From contig NZ_JAAAYE010000009.1 of NCBI RefSeq assembly GCF_013282575.1, forward strand, positions 62,001 to 126,000: a stretch of DNA of 64,000 bases. The letters run 5' to 3'. The stretch comes from Paraburkholderia sp. NMBU_R16. Its GTDB lineage: Bacteria > Pseudomonadota > Gammaproteobacteria > Burkholderiales > Burkholderiaceae. Positions 2,719 through 28,576 of the stretch are shown piece by piece; position 1 is the stretch's first letter; the number at the start of each line of letters is the position of its first letter. Made by a program: the position numbers and the translations under genes. Under the pieces are notes generated by a model, which was not told where the DNA came from, ran no database searches, and was given only the letters and a program-made list of their open reading frames with translations.

Positions 2719-3803
2719 TGTCGCGTCTCCGTCTCGACGAAACGGATTGCGTCGTTGGTCCAATCGACACCCACCTGCTGTCCCTCGGCGATCGGCTCCC
2801 CGCCCTCGTTCTGGCAACACACGAGCACCTCCCCAAGCGGGGAAGCCACCCGATAAAGCCATTGGCTCCCGAGAAAGAAACGGCTCGTCACGGTGGCGTC
2901 CAGGCGGCCGCGGCTCGACTCGCAAAGCTTGAGCTTTTCCGGGCGGATACAGACCGTCACCGCGTCGCCTGTGCCGGGTTCGCCACGGCCGTTCCCGCTG
3001 GGCACCGCGCGTCCCACGGCAACGACGTCATGCCCGAGATCGATGCGGATTTCGTCGCCGTCGTTCGCGAGCACCGTGCCCGCGAGCAGATTCGCCTTGC
3101 CGATGAATTGCGAAACGAAGCGGTTTTCGGGGCGCTCGTAGGCTCGATAAGGTGTATCGATCTGCGTAATGCGGCCTGCTTGCATGACGACGACGCGGTC
3201 GCTGATGGAAAGCGCCTCGGACTGATCGTGCGTGACCATGATGGTCGTCGTGCCGATGCGCCGTTGGATCGCGCGCAGTTCGAACTGCATCTCCTCGCGC
3301 AGCTTGGCATCGAGATTCGACATCGGCTCGTCGAGCAACAGGACCGGCGGCGCGATCACGATGGCGCGGGCCAGTGCCACGCGCTGACGCTGGCCGCCCG
3401 AGAGTTCGCGCGGGAAGCGGTGGGCGAGCGCGTCCAGATGAACGAGCGAGAGCGCTTCACGCACGCGCTCCTCGCTTTCCTTGCGATCGGTGCCGCGCAT
3501 CTCGAGTCCGAACCGGACGTTCTGCGCGACGCTCATGTGCGGAAACAGCGCATAGCTTTGGAACACGACGCCGAGCCCGCGGCGATTGGGCTTCAAATGG
3601 GTGATGTCGCGTCCGTCGAGCGCGATGCTGCCGCTCGATACGTCGAGGAAACCGGCGATCATCTGTAGCGTCGTGGTTTTGCCGCAGCCGGACGGACCGA
3701 GCAAGGAAACGAATTCACCCTTCTCGACCGACAGGTTCAGGTTGCGTACGGCCTGCAGATCGCCGAACGATTTCGACAGATCGGTGAGCTTGAGAAACGA
3801 CAT
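2715..3803 (-). CDS. ABC transporter ATP-binding protein, PotA type
   Basis: This 362-residue ATPase has Walker A GPSGCGKT at residues 36-43, the signature LSGGQ at 134-138 and Walker B LLLDEP at 155-160. The C-terminal 120 residues correspond to the TOBE-type regulatory domain of the PotA/CysA group. ATG at 3803 is preceded by AGGAT at a good distance. A longer frame extending to 3968 would run through the operator palindromes and is rejected. It is the first gene of the five-gene operon that is divergent from the IclR regulator, and it would energise the two permeases. Confidence 0.9.
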   Translation of the reverse strand: MSFLKLTDLSKSFGDLQAVRNLNLSVEKGEFVSLLGPSGCGKTTTLQMIAGFLDVSSGSIALDGRDITHLKPNRRGLGVVFQSYALFPHMSVAQNVRFGLEMRGTDRKESEERVREALSLVHLDALAHRFPRELSGGQRQRVALARAIVIAPPVLLLDEPMSNLDAKLREEMQFELRAIQRRIGTTTIMVTHDQSEALSISDRVVVMQAGRITQIDTPYRAYERPENRFVSQFIGKANLLAGTVLANDGDEIRIDLGHDVVAVGRAVPSGNGRGEPGTGDAVTVCIRPEKLKLCESSRGRLDATVTSRFFLGSQWLYRVASPLGEVLVCCQNEGGEPIAEGQQVGVDWTNDAIRFVETETRQ

Positions 3804-3912
3804 GGCGGATCCTTTATAACCGCGACGCCGCGACACCATCGATGGCGATTTCGCCATGCGGCGCGAGGCACGGCTGATTCTGTCCAGCCAGATTTGTCGC
3901 GTCAATTTGGAA

Positions 3913-3927
3913 TTCCGCTCAGCGGGA
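3913..3927. promoter_or_regulatory. Putative IclR operator, site 1
   Basis: The sequence TTCCGCTCAGCGGGA is a 7-1-7 inverted repeat with one mismatch. It has the same frame, TTCCG-N5-CGGRA, as the perfect palindrome centred exactly 30 bases away, about three helical turns. IclR-family regulators bind such palindromes, and the site lies next to an iclR-type gene. Assignment to that protein is inference. Confidence 0.55.
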
Positions 3928-3941
3928 GAAAAATTGAAAAA

Positions 3942-3958
3942 ATTCCGTTGAACGGAAT
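3942..3958. promoter_or_regulatory. Putative IclR operator, site 2 (perfect palindrome)
   Basis: ATTCCGTTGAACGGAAT is a perfect palindrome with 8-base arms around a central G. It shares TTCCG-N5-CGGAA with site 1. The pair in the divergent promoter fits autorepression plus control of the importer operon by the adjacent regulator. Confidence 0.6.
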
Positions 3959-4101
3959 GCCAATTCATCTTTTCGGTGCTTCATTCCATTGCGGGGGATC
4001 AGGGTTTGCCCGCTGTCTCAAGCTATATCTCACACATTCGCTCGAAAACTGAGATACTCGCTTTCGACGAGCCGGCAGAGATAGTTTCACTCAATGGAAT
4101 A

Positions 4102-5001
4102 ATGGTCGCATATATGAGGCAATCCTCCGTCTCGGATGGAACATCGGCGAGAGCAGCGTCGGAGCAGGCGGACGACGCGCGCGCGAGCGGCATGCTGCCG
4201 CGCGCATTCGCCGTGATTCGCGCGTTGGCGGCTGCGCAGGCCGATGGCGCGCGCGTGACGCAGCTCGCCAAGTCCGTGGGCCTGACGCAGGGCACGACGC
4301 ATCGCATCCTGCACGCGTTGATGGCGGAAGGTGCGGTCGAACAAGACGAGCAAACCAAGCGCTACCGGCTCGGCCTCGATTTCTTTGCGCTGGCCGCGCT
4401 CGCGGGCAACCCCGGCGGGTTGCGCACGCTTTGCCGCCCATCGCTGTTGAGGCTATGCGCCAGTCTTGGCGAGACGTTTTTTTTACTGGCGAAGAGCGGG
4501 TTCGACGCAGTGTGTCTCGACATCTGCGAGGGACCGTTTCCGATTCGCTCGTTCACGAGCGACATCGGCGGACGAATCGCGCTGGGTGTCGGACAAGGCA
4601 GCCTCGCAATCCTCGCGTTCTTGCCTGAAGCCGAACGAGAAGAAATCATCCGCTTCAACGTGCCACGCATTCGCGGATACGGCGTACTCGACGAGGTCTA
4701 CCTGCGCACCGAGATCGAACGCGTGCGGCAGCTCGGCTATGCCGGGCGCAACAGCGGCGTGCTCGACGGCATGGCAGGCGTGGCCGTGCCGATCCTCGAC
4801 CGCGCGGGTACGGCCATTGCGGCGTTGAGCGTAGGCACACTGGCTTCCAGGCTCGGCGAGGAACGGCTGCCGATGATCGTGGAACTGCTGAAACGGCAGG
4901 CCGATGCGATCGGACCATTGGCCAATCCGTTCGACGTCGCGCTGCGGCGCCGGCCCACGCACGCGCTTGCCGATGTCGTGCCGCACCCGCGCAGCGTATG
5001 A
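4102..5001 (+). CDS. IclR family transcriptional regulator
   Basis: About 299 residues from ATG at 4102; an in-frame ATG at 4114 and an upstream GTG at 3976 are alternatives. Residues from about 30 form the winged helix-turn-helix (VTQLAKSVGLTQGTTHRILHA is the recognition region), and the C-terminal 180 residues are the IclR effector-binding domain with the SVGTL segment near the end. IclR proteins usually repress catabolic or transport genes until a small metabolite binds. Its place opposite the ABC/oxidoreductase operon, with paired palindromes between, makes that operon the likely target. No clear ribosome-binding site marks the start, so the exact N-terminus is uncertain. Confidence 0.88.
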   Translation: MVAYMRQSSVSDGTSARAASEQADDARASGMLPRAFAVIRALAAAQADGARVTQLAKSVGLTQGTTHRILHALMAEGAVEQDEQTKRYRLGLDFFALAALAGNPGGLRTLCRPSLLRLCASLGETFFLLAKSGFDAVCLDICEGPFPIRSFTSDIGGRIALGVGQGSLAILAFLPEAEREEIIRFNVPRIRGYGVLDEVYLRTEIERVRQLGYAGRNSGVLDGMAGVAVPILDRAGTAIAALSVGTLASRLGEERLPMIVELLKRQADAIGPLANPFDVALRRRPTHALADVVPHPRSV

Positions 5002-5074
5002 CGCGTGACGTCGCCGTGAGGGCGGGGGACTCCGGTAAAATCAGCGCTTTTCGCCTCACATCGAGCTGCTCCTC

Positions 5075-5773
5075 ATGACCCAAGACGAACTCAAGCGCAT
5101 GGTCGGCCAAGCCGCCGCCGACTACGTGAATGCCCACGCTCCGGAGGGCGCCGTCATCGGCGTCGGCACCGGATCCACGGCGAATTGCTTCATCGATGCG
5201 CTGGCGCCGCATCGGGCGCGTTACCGCGGCGCGGTATCGAGCTCGGTGGCCACCACGGCGCGGCTCGAGCAGCATGGCATTCGCGTGTTCGATCTGAACG
5301 AGATCGAATCGCTGCCCGTCTATGTCGACGGCGCCGACGAGATCGATGCGAGCGGCGCCATGATCAAGGGCGGCGGCGGCGCGCTCACGCGCGAGAAAAT
5401 CGTTGCTTCGGTATCCGAAGTATTCGTCTGTATCGCCGATGCATCGAAGCGGGTCGATGTGCTCGGCGGTTTTCCATTGCCGATCGAGGTCGTGCCAATG
5501 GCACGCACGGCGATCGGGCGGCGAGTCATGGCGCTCGGCGGGGTGCCGGTGCTGCGCGTGCGGCCGGACGGTGCTCCTTATATCACGGACAACGGCAACG
5601 AGATTCTCGACGTCAAGGGCTTGCAGATCGCCGTCCCGCGCGAACTCGAGGCGACGATCAACGCGTGGCCCGGAGTCGTCACCGTCGGACTGTTTGCCGC
5701 ACGAGGCGCGGATCTGTGCCTGTTGGGCTCCGAAACGGGCGTCGAATCGATTCTTTACGGCGCACCAAGGTAA
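5075..5773 (+). CDS. rpiA: Ribose-5-phosphate isomerase A
   Basis: RpiA interconverts ribose 5-phosphate and ribulose 5-phosphate in the non-oxidative pentose phosphate pathway in the cytoplasm. The 232-residue product has the normal family length. GVGTGST at residues 29-35 binds phosphate, DGADEID is at 85-91, and [11 protein letters not shown] at 98-108 carries the catalytic Glu107 and Lys98, equivalent to the known active-site residues of the family. It lies on its own, 73 bases after the IclR gene and followed by a small unknown gene. Confidence 0.97.
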
Positions 5774-21864: not shown

Positions 21865-22045
21865 CGATCAACGCTCCTTCGAAACGGGTTGGGCGCGCGA
21901 AAGCCGGCCGTCCTGCGACGCGCGGGCTACATTCTAGCGGGTCGGCTGCCTCGGGCGAGACCGATTGCTGCTTTGCGGGCGCTTCGACGGGCTTTCGCCT
22001 GCCCGCTGCGGTAAAATCGCGGTCTATTCTGTCGTTGGCCTTCCT

Positions 22046-23059
22046 ATGTCGTCTCCTGCCGTTTCCCGCCCGCGCCGCGTCAGTGTCGCTCCCATGATGG
22101 ACTGGACCGATCGTCACTGTCGGTACTTCCATCGGCTCATTTCGCGCCATACGTGGCTGTACACGGAAATGGTGACGACGGGCGCGTTGCTGTTCGGCGA
22201 TGTCGCACGTCATCTTGCGTTCACGGCCCAAGAAGCGCCGGTCGCTTTGCAACTTGGCGGCAGCGAGCCCAGCGATCTGGCACGAGCGGCCAAACTGGGC
22301 GAGCAGTGGGGCTACGACGAAATAAACCTCAACTGTGGCTGTCCTTCCGAGCGCGTGCAGCGCGGCGCGTTCGGCGCTTGCCTGATGAACGAGCCCGCAC
22401 TCGTGGCCGAGTGCGTGAAGGCGATGCGCGACGCGGTGGGCATACCGGTGACGGTCAAGCATCGGATCGGCGTCGATGCGCTCGAGGATTATTCGTTCGT
22501 GCGCGATTTCGTCGGTACGGTGGCCGATGCCGGCTGCGAAGTCTTCATCGTCCATGCGCGCAATGCGATTCTCAAGGGCCTGTCGCCGAAGGAGAATCGC
22601 GAGATACCGCCGCTCAAATACGACTACGCCTATCGCCTCAAGCGCGATTTTCCGGCGCTGGAAATCATCATCAACGGCGGCGTCAAGACGCTGGACGAAG
22701 TCGAATCGCATCTCGCGCATGTGGACGGGGTGATGCTGGGGCGCGAGGCCTATCACAACCCCTACGTTCTCGCGGAAGTCGACACGCGATTCTACGGTAC
22801 GGCGGCGCCCCTGCCGAGTCGCGAGCAGGTCGAGGCGGGTCTCATCGATTACTGTGGTATCGAGCTGGCGCGCGGGACGTTCCTCGGTGCAATCACGCGT
22901 CACGCGTTGGGCTTGTATCGCGGTGTGGCGGGCGCGCGCGGCTGGCGGCGGGTGCTGTCCGACAGCAAGCGGCTCGCCGCCGCCGATTTGTCGATATTCA
23001 ACGAAGCGCGTGCGCAATTGCGCGAGCCCCTCGAATCCGCGGTAGAAATTGTCGATTGA
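22046..23059 (+). CDS. dusA: tRNA-dihydrouridine(20/20a) synthase
   Basis: DusA reduces uridines 20 and 20a in the D-loop of tRNAs using FMN and NADPH. The 337-residue protein has VAPMMDWTDRHCR at the N-terminus, the FMN-binding TIM barrel, the catalytic cysteine in NLNCGCPSERV (residue 99), and the VKHRIGVD and HARNAILKGLSPKENR blocks specific to the DusA subgroup. ATG at 22046 gives the usual length. A tRNA-His gene follows 88 bases after its stop, and an island is inserted there. Confidence 0.96.
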   Translation: MSSPAVSRPRRVSVAPMMDWTDRHCRYFHRLISRHTWLYTEMVTTGALLFGDVARHLAFTAQEAPVALQLGGSEPSDLARAAKLGEQWGYDEINLNCGCPSERVQRGAFGACLMNEPALVAECVKAMRDAVGIPVTVKHRIGVDALEDYSFVRDFVGTVADAGCEVFIVHARNAILKGLSPKENREIPPLKYDYAYRLKRDFPALEIIINGGVKTLDEVESHLAHVDGVMLGREAYHNPYVLAEVDTRFYGTAAPLPSREQVEAGLIDYCGIELARGTFLGAITRHALGLYRGVAGARGWRRVLSDSKRLAAADLSIFNEARAQLREPLESAVEIVD

Positions 23060-23147
23060 GGGGCTAGGCAAGTCGCGATGGTATTTGTATAATCTCGCTT
23101 CTTCGTCGGTGCGGCTGGTCTTGACGCACCGAACTGCAGATCCCAGT

Positions 23148-23224
23148 GGTGGCTGTAGCTCAGTTGGTAGAGTCCAGGATTGTGATTCCTGTTGTCGCGA
23201 GTTCGAGTCTCGTCAGCCACCCCA
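23148..23224 (+). tRNA. tRNA-His (GTG), hybrid with island-supplied 3' half
   Basis: This is a 77-base cloverleaf with the extra G at position -1 pairing with C73, typical of tRNA-His, and with encoded CCA. The anticodon GTG is at 23182-23184. The T-stem reads GCGAG/CTCGT here, while the displaced half-copy at 26921-26969 reads GTGGG/CCCAT, so pairs 50-64 and 52-62 are swapped as complementary pairs. The gene is therefore intact and functional-looking, but its 3' end came with the integrated element. Confidence 0.97.
23176..23224 (+). repeat. attL: left attachment repeat in tRNA-His
   Basis: These 49 bases of the tRNA anticodon arm to CCA end are repeated at 26921-26969 with five mismatches (at 23193, 23198, 23200, 23210 and 23212). 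The first 17 bases, AGGATTGTGATTCCTGT, are identical and span the anticodon loop, which is the probable crossover core. Confidence 0.9.
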
Positions 23225-23275
23225 ATAAAATCAACGATCTGCGCATTCTCCACCGTGTATACGAACAGGGCGAAA

Positions 23276-23303
23276 TTCCCAAAAATTCCCATTTCGGGAA
23301 CTA
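23276..23303. repeat. Candidate integrase arm-type sites, left end
   Basis: TTCCCAAAA at 23276-23284 and CGGGAACTA at 23295-23303 both recur near the right end of the element in mirrored order. They sit just after the integrase stop and outside any gene. A role as recombinase or excisionase arm sites is inference. Confidence 0.4.
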
Positions 23304-24290
23304 TAGCGCTCTCCGCTTGACGATCTTCGTGCGATCGTAGACCCGCGCCGTCGTCTCCTTGTTCGCGTGCAGGTCCGGAAGTTCGCCACGTTTTGCCTTG
23401 TACTGCGTGGCGTAATATGCCCGTAAGTCATGAAAGGTGAAGCGCTTGGCGATCACCTTTTCCGCGAGTGCGGCTACGATCACCTTTTGCCACATTGCCT
23501 TGAACCCGGCGCTCGTGTAATGCGTCCGGTGTCGAGTCGAAAAGACGTATAGGCAATCGTCCTTGCGCGCTGCGCGCAGCCTCGACAGCAGTTCGGAGAC
23601 GGCCGGCGTTATCTCGATATGCTCGATCACTTCGCCTCGCTTCTTGCCACGCTGTTTCGCGCGCTTGACGCGTATCACTCCCTTTTCCTCGTCGATCTGC
23701 GGCCAGGACAGGTCGAGAAACTCAGCCTTGCGGTTGCCGGCGAGCGCTGCGTATTCGGCAGCCATGCCCACCATTGCACGCTGCCCTCCCATCGCAGCAA
23801 TCCATGCGACGAATGCCTCGAAGTCGGCGACATCGGGGGCCTCCGTGCGCGGCTGCTCTTCGTTACGGCGCACCTCGCGGCAGGGGTTGTGCTTGGCCTC
23901 GCCGCGGTCTATCGCAAGCCCGATTAAATTCGACAGTAGAGCTATTTCGCGGTTCGCACGCACCGGCGCGTCCGCCCGCTCGACCCTGAGATACCGCGCG
24001 ACGTGCGTAGCATCGATGTCCGCTGCTCGCATGTCGCCGAATATAGCCAGTAGTGGGATGCTGCATTGTGCGTAGTCGGTGCGTGTGTCCTTCGCATATC
24101 GGTTCCATCGAGCCGATTCCTGGAATTGCTCCCATAGACGCTTGATCGTCCCGATGTCATCCCCGCCGCCGGTAATATCGAGCACCTTTCGGATCGCCGC
24201 GATTCGATCATGGCCGAGTTTGATCGGCTTCCCCTTGATCGGATGGTAGCGGTACGAGAACCCACCGCTTTTGAGCGGGCGAGCTTCCAT
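23301..24290 (-). CDS. Tyrosine recombinase/integrase
   Basis: This 329-residue site-specific recombinase starts at ATG 24290 (a TTG three codons upstream is also possible). The N-terminal third carries a core-binding SAM-like domain. In the catalytic domain the box I arginine lies in AALAGNRKAEFLDLSW, the beta-hairpin lysine in VKRAKQRGKKR, the HxxR pair in FTFHDLRAYY, and the nucleophilic tyrosine in TTARVYDR. All catalytic positions are present, so the enzyme may still be active. It ends 76 bases from the tRNA-His gene that forms attL, the usual arrangement for tRNA-targeting integrases. Confidence 0.93.
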   Translation of the reverse strand: MEARPLKSGGFSYRYHPIKGKPIKLGHDRIAAIRKVLDITGGGDDIGTIKRLWEQFQESARWNRYAKDTRTDYAQCSIPLLAIFGDMRAADIDATHVARYLRVERADAPVRANREIALLSNLIGLAIDRGEAKHNPCREVRRNEEQPRTEAPDVADFEAFVAWIAAMGGQRAMVGMAAEYAALAGNRKAEFLDLSWPQIDEEKGVIRVKRAKQRGKKRGEVIEHIEITPAVSELLSRLRAARKDDCLYVFSTRHRTHYTSAGFKAMWQKVIVAALAEKVIAKRFTFHDLRAYYATQYKAKRGELPDLHANKETTARVYDRTKIVKRRAL

Positions 24291-24317
24291 GCGAGGCAAT
24301 AGGCCGTCGCGCTCGCG

Positions 24318-24605
24318 ATGATGCAGCAGCAGATGTCGGCCATCCTCGCTGAAGCACAGAGCAAAGATCCGTGGACAAGCCGCGCGCGTCCGAGCTTCAT
24401 GTACGTCATGTACATCCTGATCCTTTGTGCAATCCCTATGGGAGTTCTGGCGGCCTTCAGTCCGGAGACCGCTGTCAGCATCGCCCGAGGCATGCAGGCG
24501 TGGCTGAAGGCCATTCCTGACGCACTATGGACGACGTTCGGCACTGGCTACGCGGGCTATGTCATCGCGCGCACTTATGAGAAGAAACGGGGGACTTCTA
24601 AATGA
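24318..24605 (+). CDS. Phage holin-like protein (3TM type), possibly N-terminally shortened
   Basis: This is a 95-residue protein with two clear hydrophobic helices (MYVMYILILCAIPMGVLAAF and ALWTTFGTGYAGYVIA) after a polar start, and a lysine-rich end. The DPWTSRARPSFMYV entry and the FGTGYAGYVIAR segment resemble three-helix holins of prophages. Those are often longer at the N-terminus, and here the gene begins only 28 bases from the integrase start, so its 5' part may have been lost in a deletion. Several ATGs (24318, 24321) are possible. Its stop overlaps the next gene by four bases. Confidence 0.65.
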   Translation: MMQQQMSAILAEAQSKDPWTSRARPSFMYVMYILILCAIPMGVLAAFSPETAVSIARGMQAWLKAIPDALWTTFGTGYAGYVIARTYEKKRGTSK

Positions 24606-24826
24606 AACAGTTCCTCTGGAATCTGCTCATCCTGATTGATGAGATCGCCAACACGCTGACCGGCGGCGACCCGGGGGAAACGATCAGCTCGCGCGCGGGC
24701 AAAGCCATGAAAGAGGGTAAGCGCTGGGGCTGCATCCTCTGCCGCTTCCTCGATCTCTTCCAGAAAGACCACTGCATCCTTTCGATCAACGACGACGACG
24801 GCTCACGCGCTGTCATCAAGGACTGA
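24602..24826 (+). CDS. Small conserved phage protein, lysis-module associated
   Basis: This is a 74-residue protein from ATG 24602, coupled to the holin-like gene by a four-base overlap. The N-terminus MKQFLWNLLILIDEIANTL is an amphipathic or membrane-associating helix, followed by GGDPGETISSRAGKA and the cysteines of WGCILCRF and KDHC. Proteins with this pattern occur next to holin genes in Burkholderia prophages. The biochemical role is unknown. Confidence 0.65.
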   Translation: MKQFLWNLLILIDEIANTLTGGDPGETISSRAGKAMKEGKRWGCILCRFLDLFQKDHCILSINDDDGSRAVIKD

Positions 24827-24828
24827 CC

Positions 24829-25566
24829 ATGAAAAAGATCATCGGCGCCTTCATCGCGCTTTACTCGGCGTTTGCGTTCTCGGCGACTACTGTCCCGATC
24901 CAGCTTATTGCGCCCATCGCTGCGAATACGGTTATGGCGAACGGAACGGGGTCTACAGCTACGCCGACTGCCTTCACAATGCCAAGCTGCACCGGCGCGA
25001 CGAATGCGCTAGGTTATACAAACGGAACCGGGATAGTTTGCAACTCGGCGATCAATGCTGCGACGCTCGGCGGGGCAACTTTTGCGGCGCCCGGCGCGAT
25101 CGGCGGAACCACGCCGGCGGCCGGGACGTTTACGGCGCTAAAGGGCAACTCAAACAGCAAGTTGACTTATCAGAACAGTTCGTCGCAGAGTATTACCACG
25201 ACGCTCACTACCGTCACGGGATGGACTTCGGTCTTCGATGCCAATAGCAACTTCAATGCAAGTACGGGGGTCTTCACGGCGCCTGTGACGGGCTATTATT
25301 TGATAAGCGGGCAGTTGCTTCTTTCTACGACGTCCCCGGTAGCGGGGGACCAGTTCGCTTGTAATGTTGTTGCCAATGCAGTGACCATTGCCCACGGCGT
25401 CACACTCGCGCCGAACGCGACAAATCTGCTGCAACCGTGCACCTTCTCTGTCGTCGTTTCGCTTTCCTCGGGCCAGACAGCTGCGGTACAGGCTTCCAAT
25501 TCGCGTACGCAACCGTTGAATTCGGCCGCAAGCGCGAACTGGATCAGCATCCAGCAAGTGCCTTAA
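24829..25566 (+). CDS. Secreted phage fibre-like protein with C1q-like C-terminal domain
   Basis: This 245-residue protein opens with a Sec-type signal peptide (MKKIIGAFIALYSAFAFSA). A low-complexity Thr/Ala/Asn/Gly region follows, including IGGTTPAAGTFTAL, a motif common in phage fibre and collar proteins. The last 120 residues have the beta-strand pattern of a C1q/TNF-like jelly roll, with FDANSNFNASTGVFTAPVTG as the characteristic entry block and cysteines in QFACNVV and QPCTFSV that could form a disulfide. A signal peptide on a fibre-type protein implies export by the host rather than virion assembly alone. Its stop codon overlaps that of the convergent methyltransferase gene. Confidence 0.7.
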   Translation: MKKIIGAFIALYSAFAFSATTVPIQLIAPIAANTVMANGTGSTATPTAFTMPSCTGATNALGYTNGTGIVCNSAINAATLGGATFAAPGAIGGTTPAAGTFTALKGNSNSKLTYQNSSSQSITTTLTTVTGWTSVFDANSNFNASTGVFTAPVTGYYLISGQLLLSTTSPVAGDQFACNVVANAVTIAHGVTLAPNATNLLQPCTFSVVVSLSSGQTAAVQASNSRTQPLNSAASANWISIQQVP

Positions 25567-26615
25567 CCGCGCTTGCGCACGACGATGCCCACCGAGGTTG
25601 TGACGAACTCGCCGAACTTGATCTTGAGGCTGGGCTCGTCGGCGTAAGGTGGAAGATCGACATAGCCGTCGAGGAAGTGGGAGTCGGGGGCCACGATAAA
25701 CGGACTGACTTCATGGCCCAGCTTCTCCAGCCTGCTCACCAGTTCTTCCATGTCCCGGCGCCGGTACAAGACCGTGTGGCCGGTCGCGATCGTGTCATCG
25801 TTGGACGACAGGTTGAATTCGGTCGTGTGAACGGCAACCCCGCCCGGCTTGAGCGTATTCAGGCTATTGACCACGAACTGCATGCCCGCTTCCAGCGATC
25901 CAAGGTGCTCGAAACAGCAAGCCGACCAGGTGAAGTCAAACCCGGTCAGATCCGCACTGATCGCGTTCATGTCCTCGAAGCGGTGCGAAACCTTCGCGTC
26001 GAACACGTCCTTGTCGACCAGGGTGGGGTAGTAAAGCTCGCCCAGACTATCGCTGTGCTGGCCGGTTTCCGTCCAGCCGCTCGAAACGCCGATCTCGGGT
26101 GGAGCGTCAGTTGCGACAATCGCAGCGCCACAGCTCGCAAACACGGATGGCATTCTTTCTTGGCCGACGCCGAACCCTAGACCTCGACTTTCTTCCTTCA
26201 GCACTCCAGCCTGCTCAAGGTGATGGAAGATGAAAACCCATTCCCACAGCTTGCGATGAAACTGAACGCGGTGGTCAAGAAGCCCGCATATCTCGGCATA
26301 GCGCGGGTGCAGGAAGTCGGAAGCACTGCAAGTCGAGTAGGGCAGAAAGGGGCTGTCGTAGGATCGGGACGGCTGCGGCAGGAACAGGTGATCACGGATT
26401 GACCTGCTGATACGAGCCTCGATATCCCCTTCCAGCATTTCGAGTCTCGCACGGAGTTCGCTGACTTCAGCCGCAAGCCTGGCGTTGGTGGCGGATGATT
26501 CCACTGCCACCGTCTTGGCGGTTCCATGCAGGCCATGTAAGGATTCGTTGATGCCCAGCAGGGCGGAGTAAGCACGCGCCATCTGGCGGAATGGCGTGAT
26601 CTGGGCAATCGACAT
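25563..26615 (-). CDS. SAM-dependent methyltransferase, class I
   Basis: This is a 350-residue protein from ATG 26615, preceded by GAGGAG. The first 75 residues contain a predicted coiled coil (AAEVSELRARLEMLEGDIEARI). The Rossmann fold has motif I in LGFGVGQERMPSVFASCGA, the acidic residue in ATDAPP, an SACCFEHLGSLEAGM post-motif and LKPGGVAVHTTEFN. Such proteins with N-terminal coiled coils are found in polysaccharide and glycan clusters, which suggests a sugar or lipid target, but this is inference. It is the outermost gene of the island and is convergent with the fibre-like gene, so it looks like a cargo (moron) gene. Confidence 0.8.
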   Translation of the reverse strand: MSIAQITPFRQMARAYSALLGINESLHGLHGTAKTVAVESSATNARLAAEVSELRARLEMLEGDIEARISRSIRDHLFLPQPSRSYDSPFLPYSTCSASDFLHPRYAEICGLLDHRVQFHRKLWEWVFIFHHLEQAGVLKEESRGLGFGVGQERMPSVFASCGAAIVATDAPPEIGVSSGWTETGQHSDSLGELYYPTLVDKDVFDAKVSHRFEDMNAISADLTGFDFTWSACCFEHLGSLEAGMQFVVNSLNTLKPGGVAVHTTEFNLSSNDDTIATGHTVLYRRRDMEELVSRLEKLGHEVSPFIVAPDSHFLDGYVDLPPYADEPSLKIKFGEFVTTSVGIVVRKRG

Positions 26616-26819
26616 TGTGGTTTGCTCCTCGGGATCTCAGGTGTGTTTGTTCCGGAATATTACATTAGTCGAAATTCCTGAATATCGGCGCCAGATCATG
26701 GATCTTCCGTTACAGGCTGCATGAGCGCTAGCGCGTCATGGGGCCGGCCCGGGCCAATCTCGCTGCTGCTCTCGCCACCGCGAGGGCCGAACTGGCGTGA
26801 GAATTCCGGCACAATGGAC

Positions 26820-26882
26820 CGGGAACTACGTTAGAAAAATCCTTAAAAATCAACGCGTGCGTTTACGTTTCAGTTCCCAAAA
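26820..26882. repeat. Candidate integrase arm-type sites, right end
   Basis: CGGGAACTA at 26820-26828 and TTCCCAAAA at 26874-26882 are exact copies of the two 9-mers at the left inner end, in mirrored order, within 100 bases of attR. This arrangement is expected of arm-type sites but is unproven. Confidence 0.4.
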
Positions 26883-26920
26883 GCATGCCTTAGCACAGCA
26901 GAATGGCGGCATGGATGGCT

Positions 26921-26969
26921 AGGATTGTGATTCCTGTCGTCGTGGGTTCGAGTCCCATCAGCCACCCCA
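26921..26969 (+). repeat. attR: displaced 3' half of tRNA-His
   Basis: This is the 3' half of a tRNA-His gene from the anticodon arm to CCA, without any 5' half, so it is not a working tRNA gene. Its T-stem GTGGG/CCCAT is internally paired, and it differs from the active gene by two covarying pairs and one variable-loop base. It most likely represents the original host 3' end, pushed aside by integration. Confidence 0.9.
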
Positions 26970-27062: not shown

Positions 27063-27773
27063 CTATGTCGATGCGGTGCCTTCGAGTGAATTGAGCGGCA
27101 CCGGCATATTCCCGATCTCCTCATGCAGCGACGGCGCCTCTTCGGGCATCGGCACCCGTTCGTTCATCGCCGGATGCAACCCCCAGCGCCGCCAGTCGAG
27201 TTCGTCGGAGCGCTGAGCCGCATCCTGCTGTCGCTCGATCGCGGACGCCTCCTTGCGCATCTGGCTGTCCGATTCATTCCATGTCCGCACGAAGAACGGC
27301 AGGGCAGGCGACTTGGCGTGGCCATGATCGGCTGCGACGTGGTCCGCTGGGACGAGCGATCTGCTCGCCCGGTCGGCAATCGCCGCTCTTGCGGTGCCGA
27401 GCGCAACGAGCCGCCCCTTGCTGTTTTCGAAGCGATGCTCGATATAGAAAAAGCGCCGGTCCCATCCGAGGATGCGGGTGCGCAACGCATAGCGCTCGAA
27501 TGGACGAAGCTCGTGAACATACCGAATCATGACGCCGCTCAGCAACATTCGCCAACCTTTCGACATGGCGTTCTGCAGTACGCCATTGCGAAGCAGCAGA
27601 TCGATTCGTCCGAGGTCCATGATCTGCAGGAAACGGCCGTTGTTCATATGCAGTTGCACGTCCAGGTCGGTCGGCAGCACGCGGAAATGACATTCCGAGG
27701 CATCGAGCGCCGCAAGGTTGGGACGTAGCATTGCGCGAATCGAAACGAATGCAAGGCGGGCGAGCAGTTTCAA
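27063..27773 (-). CDS. Acyl-CoA thioesterase-like protein, THEM6 type (hot-dog fold)
   Basis: This 236-residue protein belongs to the 4HBT-like group related to THEM6. The hot-dog core is visible in FRVLPTDLDVQLHMNNGRFLQIMDLGRIDLL, which includes the catalytic-type Asp, followed by the YVHELRPFERYALRTRILGWD and FYIEHRF strands. The start is TTG at 27773, supported by a GAGGGA site five bases upstream; ATG 14 codons later is an alternative. The C-terminal 50 residues are polar and not part of the fold. The substrate is unknown. Confidence 0.8.
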   Translation of the reverse strand: MKLLARLAFVSIRAMLRPNLAALDASECHFRVLPTDLDVQLHMNNGRFLQIMDLGRIDLLLRNGVLQNAMSKGWRMLLSGVMIRYVHELRPFERYALRTRILGWDRRFFYIEHRFENSKGRLVALGTARAAIADRASRSLVPADHVAADHGHAKSPALPFFVRTWNESDSQMRKEASAIERQQDAAQRSDELDWRRWGLHPAMNERVPMPEEAPSLHEEIGNMPVPLNSLEGTAST

Positions 27774-28150
27774 TTTATCCCTCGATGAAAGCGTCCCGTT
27801 TATTGGCCAATATATTGAGTCGTTTTTTTACAGGGAGCACGCGAGCCGCTTTCCGTTTTTCGGTTACGTCTCGTTACGCGGCCACAAGGCCAGTATAGAA
27901 GCGCCGCTTTATCGGCCATCATCCGAAACCTGTAGGTACCGTATTGCAGACGAATCGGAATTTACGGGATCGTCGAGCGGCCTCGATGAGCGCGTTTCAA
28001 ACGGGAATGCGGCTTGCGTCGCACCGAAGCGCATGGCGAATATGCGTTGGGGCCGGATGTATGCCCACCGGTGGTACGATGCGTTCGACGGCCACGCATG
28101 CCCCGCGCGGCGGTGGCGGTCGTCCTGTATCGAATTCATTGGAAGACGAA
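27774..28150. other. Divergent spacer, no gene
   Basis: This 377-base region separates the minus-strand thioesterase from the plus-strand unknown gene and should hold both promoters. Open frames that enter it from the right lack ribosome-binding sites and family features. No convincing palindrome or promoter pair was found. Confidence 0.45.
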
Positions 28151-28576
28151 ATGAGCAAGCAAAAGAAGACCGATCCGAAACTCGAACAAGCATTGACTCG
28201 CGGCGACCTCGCTATTCGTCAAGCGAACTCGGCGCGCGCAACTGCTGTACTTCGAGCCCTGGCGAAGATGGTGGTGGATGCCTGCGCCACGATCGGCGTC
28301 GAGGCGCATACCTCGATTCCCGACGGCGACCGAGTCTACGATCCCGTCAACGGCGTGTGGCCTCAAAAGCTGCTCGTTTCGCTCGACGGCCCCGTCGAGA
28401 CGTCGGATCCCGAAGAACTGCGCACGGTACGGCTGCTCGCCGACACGCCCGAGGTCAGATTCCGCGTCGAATGGCATCGCGCCGATGGCAAGATGGGGCG
28501 TCACGAGGCGCAACCGTTTTCGATGGTCGCGTTCATCACCGATGTGGAAATTCCCTGGGACGACGATGAACAGTGA
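28151..28576 (+). CDS. Hypothetical protein
   Basis: This is a 141-residue protein from ATG 28151, with a GAAGACGAA stretch upstream. It has a basic N-terminus, a helical segment (ATAVLRALAKMVVDACATIG) and then alternating strands such as VWPQKLLVSLDG and VRFRVEWHRADG, ending in an acidic tail. No signal peptide or membrane helix is present. The family is not recognised. It is convergent with the ABC-2 permease gene. Confidence 0.65.
   Translation: MSKQKKTDPKLEQALTRGDLAIRQANSARATAVLRALAKMVVDACATIGVEAHTSIPDGDRVYDPVNGVWPQKLLVSLDGPVETSDPEELRTVRLLADTPEVRFRVEWHRADGKMGRHEAQPFSMVAFITDVEIPWDDDEQ

Follow-up and report, generated by a model that had tools for sequence, protein, structure and literature searches.

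The only full-length gene for histidine transfer RNA (tRNA-His) in the assembly of Paraburkholderia sp. NMBU_R16 very probably carries a 3′ tail that was supplied by a temperate phage, which integrated into the gene and then decayed; we give this reading a probability of about 0.9. The gene lies in a window of 64,000 nucleotides (nt) that was analysed as a whole (contig NZ_JAAAYE010000009.1, positions 62,001 to 126,000; all positions below are those of the window). It forms the left end (attL) of a 3.7-kb element with a tyrosine integrase gene, and a displaced 3′ half of tRNA-His forms the right end (attR).

ARAGORN called tRNA-His(GTG) at 23149-23224 and Rfam at 23149-23221. Since tRNA-His bears an extra G at position -1, the gene occupies 23148-23224 when this base is counted. 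A search of the assembly with the gene returned, besides the single full-length match, only the half copy, which is 49 nt long, lies at 26921-26969 and has the same orientation as the gene, and two 60-base matches at 77%. A first-pass annotation, made from the letters of the window alone, had claimed that the two copies share their first 17 bases around the anticodon loop and then differ at five positions, four of which form T-stem pairs, and the alignment confirmed both points. The core AGGATTGTGATTCCTGT of the anticodon arm is identical at 23176-23192 and 26921-26937, and downstream of it there are five differences, the one outside the T-stem being at position 45. The T-stem reads GCGAG/CTCGT in the gene (E form) and GTGGG/CCCAT in the half copy (H form). 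Pair 50-64 is C-G in the gene and U-A in the half copy, and pair 52-62 is A-U and G-C respectively, so that the changes are compensated and each copy is internally paired, as had been proposed. The isolated T-arms folded with -4.5 (E form) and -5.2 kcal/mol (H form), compared with 0 and -0.7 kcal/mol for arms that combined E and H strands. By a rough count in which four random changes are placed among the 32 non-core positions, the chance of obtaining two fully re-paired T-stem pairs is ∼3e-5. None of the five differences affects the acceptor 3′ strand, which is identical in both copies.

To identify the form of the host lineage, we used 10 genus relatives of the window's genome, in all of which a DNA match to the upstream dus gene was found in the tRNA-His region. 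The H T-stem could be read directly in nine of them with a tRNA-His pattern that allowed both forms, and the tRNA-His of the tenth (G006), located by a full tRNA search, is a variant in the acceptor stem and shares the H T-stem. The integrase was absent from all 10 at an E-value ≤1e-20. The expectation that GTGGG/CCCAT would be the host form in relatives free of the integrase was thus borne out. Bases 26922-26966 of the half copy (45 bases) are identical in 8 of the 10 relatives, and G002 combines the H T-stem with a T at position 45. On this comparison, the displaced tail at attR has the form of the host lineage.

We then looked for the E form elsewhere, in overlapping samples of genomes (draws from the order, the class and the family, and the genus of genome G012). 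The order draw had no instance of it among its other 398 genomes, nor did the class draw, searched with a stricter pattern, among its other 368, or the genus of G012 among 60 genomes. The pattern matched in one of the other 328 genomes of the family draw (G106), at a place where no tRNA is called and the anticodon arm is different. No other tRNA-His across these samples had the E form, and we rejected its being a native host allele on these grounds. The exact E tail, including the T at position 45, could be read in two metagenomic phage contigs of a viral collection, L111 and L112. In both, the half tRNA has on one side the lysis end, which includes a phage lysozyme, and on the other an integrase that shares 75% identity with that of the window; in gene order this is the arrangement of an unintegrated phage attachment site (attP). 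Before its attR the window has the atggatggct of L112 and after its attL the ataaaatcaa of L111, and the 17-nt core is present in the attP of L112, with 15 nt of it in L111. A sequencing error behind the E tail was rejected because the same tail occurs in two phage contigs, and a chance origin of the half copy because of its 49 nt, the phage flank on one side and the integrase between the copies. Taken with the H form of all 10 relatives, the E tail in phage attPs supports the earlier claim that the host gene exchanged its T-arm for the version of the element.

Among the loci collected, which were partly fetched by tRNA-His patterns and are no random sample, the E form accounts for one of the 129 distinct contexts of the full gene and two of the 60 of the half copy; the 60 include one H-type half of an unrelated-looking copy. 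In all seven full-gene haplotypes the acceptor and T stems are fully paired, with G-U counted as a pair, and the acceptor-variant haplotype (G006 and Mycetohabitans-type loci) has its variant on both strands. Among the matches listed, and by eye, at least 25 genomes have two or more copies of tRNA-His. In at least 23 of these the listed copies are all identical over the matched bases, while one listed copy is off by one base in G338 and one of five differs in G387.

The integrase occurs, at an E-value ≤1e-20, in 24 of 398 family genomes, the window's own included. Full-length relatives with 63-79% identity are found in 14 family genomes besides that of the window, on contigs named Burkholderia, Paraburkholderia, Caballeronia and Mycetohabitans, and further ones in viral contigs and in Burkholderia phage Magia. 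A tree was built from 48 integrase loci (its 49 rows represent 34 different proteins), and at 40 of the 48 a tRNA-His tail lies within 700 bases of the integrase. These tails comprise 37 with the H stem, two with the E stem and one with GCGGG/CCCGT. The first-pass annotation had predicted that GCGAG/CTCGT would occur only with the integrase. As a tRNA-His tail it was indeed seen only in the window, L111 and L112, and in all three an integrase of the family lies next to it, but the converse fails: 37 of the 40 integrase relatives with a tail carry GTGGG/CCCAT, which made us reject the E form as a hallmark of the family. It is a rare allele within the phage group. Paired tRNA-His copies stand 58 kb apart in G320 and 45 kb apart in G148, both integrase-bearing genomes, which suggests that elements of this family are tens of kilobases long. 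In the window, as in integrative elements, the tyrosine integrase gene lies between the tRNA gene and a displaced 3′ fragment, the fragment is downstream and in the same orientation, the anticodon-arm core is identical at both ends, and the attP of the related elements L111 and L112 bears the tail seen at attL.

According to the mechanism that we propose, the tyrosine integrase of a temperate phage, specific for tRNA-His, would have catalysed recombination between the phage attP and the anticodon arm in the tRNA-His gene of the host. The attP would have brought a tRNA-His 3′ half with a different, internally paired T-arm, and we infer a crossover within the 17-nt identical core or at its edges. 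The working gene would have kept its host 5′ half and received the variable loop, the T-arm and the acceptor 3′ strand from the phage, and the host-type 3′ half would have been displaced to attR. Most of the prophage would have been lost later, apparently from the integrase start into the holin, probably together with excision, which would have fixed the chimera. The divergent T-arm could still fold because both T-stem strands sit on the phage-supplied segment. The acceptor 3′ strand, on the other hand, has to pair with the 5′ strand of the host in such a chimera, and the five differences comply: one is in the variable loop, four are in the T-stem and none is in the acceptor stem. The chimeric tRNA presumably works. 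Replacement of the 3′ part is general to tRNA-targeted integration, and it is visible here only through the sequence difference.

The element itself looks like a prophage remnant, because its holin is truncated and its integrase lacks the usual start. The holin (24318..24605) is without about the first 48 profile positions. The integrases of the five relatives compared start at an ATG that precedes DGLLPRMEAR by a few codons; in the window this ATG is missing and the frame stays open further upstream. Both defects are most simply read as one deletion that reaches from the holin into the start of the integrase. Excision would then be unlikely, and probably lost, and the chimera would last.

Several results weigh against a phage origin of the tail or against a host origin of the half copy. 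The sampled genomes included no native E-form host from which the phage allele could have come, and the window's integrase does not group with the integrases of the E-form contigs L111 and L112. On the right side, shared host DNA resumes at ∼28064-28165 in 9 of the 10 relatives, and in G003 the next conserved gene was not found within the stretch examined. The distance from tRNA-His to the next conserved DNA ranges among relatives from ∼150 bases to several kilobases; in G004, G006 and G009 about 150-180 bases separate the two, and the window retains 1.1 kb beyond the element. This segment, from 26970 to ∼28063, contains a thioesterase gene and has no match beside tRNA-His in the relatives, so that the attR flank is only putatively of host origin and the half copy may instead have been left by an element that came before. 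Consequently, the claim that the ancestral end remains at attR stands as to the form of that end, which is that of the host lineage, and is weaker as to its being the untouched host tail. The lineage form is GTGGG/CCCAT in either case.

The strongest of the rival explanations is that of tandem elements, in which an earlier element would have left the GTGGG/CCCAT tail with the 1.1-kb thioesterase segment and the present one would have given the E tail. The E form would still be the incoming one, and the half copy would not be an untouched host tail. The extra DNA between attR and the conserved gene fits this arrangement, as does reuse of the site within the genus (G008 has two copies with 51 kb between them, and G005 has a decayed half copy). 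Nevertheless, a third copy of the tail was not found in the window and the 1.1-kb segment has just one 99-base match in phage records, so we consider tandem elements unlikely, if credible. Far less probable is that the phage arrived with an H-like tail and that the chimeric gene acquired the E T-arm only later, through compensatory mutations. The GTGGG/CCCAT stem of 37 of the 40 integrase relatives speaks for it, and compensatory T-stem change does occur in the tRNA-His of the family (GCGGG/CCCGT); however, the identical E tail, with T at position 45, is present in two phage attPs, and four changes in two pairs would be needed twice. Finally, that the E form is native and the GTGGG/CCCAT half copy was imported by the element is the least probable, for although the relatives do not share the DNA to the right of attR and other phages of the group carry a GTGGG/CCCAT tail, all 10 genus relatives have this T-stem, and in the family the attP supplies the integrase-side tail, which is the E form here and in L111 and L112.

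The exchange of a tRNA 3′ part by a phage has a precedent in mycobacteriophage Boilgate, which uses attB-4 in tRNA-Lys-TTT (PMC10865867). In the passages on this phage, attP carries the tRNA 3′ half with five single-base differences from the host in a 43-bp core, and integration, confirmed by polymerase chain reaction (PCR), yields a chimeric tRNA-Lys at attL that is predicted to fold. The window shares with Boilgate the five differences and a foldable chimeric tRNA at attL. It differs in phage, host and tRNA, and its integration is read from sequence, whereas that of Boilgate was confirmed by PCR. The compensated T-stem pairs and the decayed prophage are features of the present case that those passages do not discuss. 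Islander is based, in the passages describing it, on elements that insert into a tRNA gene and supply its 3′ part, with an anticodon-centred crossover (PMC4383910). Like Islander islands, the element has a tRNA gene, an integrase, a displaced 3′ fragment in the same orientation and a length >2 kb; unlike in that description, its two tRNA copies differ in sequence, a situation that the same passages do not treat. In tRNA-dependent lysogeny, as the passages on it relate, phage and host have only a short core in common, integration does not restore the host tRNA and the phage provides a tRNA itself (PMC10865867). The window resembles it in that integration took place in a tRNA gene without another host copy. 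Unlike there, tRNA-His at attL is complete and rebuilt, as called by ARAGORN and Rfam, and the remnant has no tRNA gene, a statement that covers what is left of the prophage. Burkholderia phage Magia (MT701587.1) has a related integrase (77.4%) with a tRNA-His 3′ half adjoining it, and differs in being a complete 44.9-kb phage whose tail has the GTGGG/CCCAT stem. All in all, the general mechanism is already known and the window is a well-supported further case. It serves as a natural record of the portion of a tRNA for which a phage can substitute its own version: the T-arm, both strands of which derive from the phage, may differ, and the acceptor strand, which has to pair with host sequence, is retained. 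A further suggestion is that, once a prophage has decayed, the sole tRNA that a bacterium has for one amino acid can be partly of phage origin.

Comparison of phage contigs L111 (E form) and L236 (H form) gave an unexpected result, since they are near-identical and have different tails. They share 97.6% identity over 4.39 kb, and 97 of the 106 differing alignment columns fall within 2200-2837 of L111, a block that holds the 3′ half of the integrase, the attP tail and the T-arm. From the T-stem outward, on the phage-head side, there is no difference for more than 2 kb (2838-5199). In the integrase tree L236 groups with L111 at 98/79 and L112 joins them at 100/99; the window is outside this clade, its own position being in no well supported set. 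The T-arm allele thus does not follow the integrase tree, an H-form contig being grouped with an E-form one and the E-form window standing outside. The allele may have travelled by the att core, by ordinary homologous recombination or from unsampled E-form hosts. As a tentative idea, more doubtful than not, phages that integrate at tRNA-His may hold a T-arm allele pool of their own, with movement between phages, evolution by compensated pairs and fixation in hosts by decayed prophages. It would draw on the occurrence of the E form only in phage attPs and the window's host, on the tail difference between L111 and L236 and on the grouping in the tree, and compensated evolution would be possible because both T-stem strands are phage-borne.

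Table. Features of the tRNA-His element and its surroundings, with the base differences between the gene and the half copy
Feature	Position in the window	Strand	Evidence or remark
tRNA-dihydrouridine synthase (dus), conserved host gene upstream of tRNA-His	21965..23059	+	Pfam Dus, E-value 1.5e-82
tRNA-His(GTG), putative chimera (5′ half host, 3′ half phage); attL	23148..23224	+	
Core AGGATTGTGATTCCTGT, 17 nt, anticodon arm	23176..23192	+	identical at attR
Phage-type T-arm GCGAG TTCGAGT CTCGT (E form)	23197..23213	+	identical T-arm in phage contigs L111 and L112
Tyrosine integrase, tRNA-His-targeting family	23301..24299	-	Pfam Phage_integrase, E-value 1.3e-11; phrog_1
3TM holin	24318..24605	+	PF11351, profile 49-123 of 123; phrog_3427, profile 54-139 of 141
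Open reading frame, 74 amino acids, resembling one next to the lysis genes in phage contigs L111 and L236	24602..24826	+	68% DNA identity over 129 bases
Protein of 245 amino acids	24829..25566	+	C-terminus weakly C1q-like, PF00386, E-value 2e-4 (below cut-off); phrog_15750, E-value 3e-10
Cargo protein of 350 amino acids	25563..26615	-	no family match
Phage right end atggatggct, directly 5′ of the core	26911..26920	+	same in attP of L112
Displaced tRNA-His 3′ half, host-lineage form, T-arm GTGGG TTCGAGT CCCAT; attR	26921..26969	+	
Thioesterase gene	27063-27773	-	
Difference at tRNA position 45 (variable loop)	23193 T / 26938 C		
Difference at tRNA position 50 (T-stem)	23198 C / 26943 T		
Difference at tRNA position 52 (T-stem)	23200 A / 26945 G		
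Difference at tRNA position 62 (T-stem)	23210 T / 26955 C		
Difference at tRNA position 64 (T-stem)	23212 G / 26957 A		

The tRNA scan of the window called no tRNA between 23225 and 26920. The family matched by the 245-amino-acid protein, phrog_15750, is a phage family of unknown function. The 350-amino-acid protein had no hit in Pfam, PHROGs, PADLOC or NCBIfam, and a PDB search returned only three matches, to apolipoprotein E, with E-values of 0.75-0.91, none of them meaningful. By eye only, parts of it look like an S-adenosylmethionine-dependent methyltransferase. A scan of 23000-24500, which includes attL, gave no terminator, with 1.3 expected by chance. In several relatives (loci L262, L263, L264, L266 and L267) a hairpin with a T-run that resembles an intrinsic terminator was seen by eye directly 3′ of tRNA-His. 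The two tRNA-His copies of G008 (L271, L272) are without a match to the window's integrase at an E-value ≤1e-20, and the full gene has ataaaatca after it, like that of the window, so that another element may use the tRNA-His site there. In integrase-free G005 the decayed half copy, a trace of an older element, lies 0.7 kb behind the gene (L266:4438). Elsewhere in the window, 51981-52118 matches the Burkholderia small RNA BcKCsr2 (Rfam RF02883, 52.3 bits).

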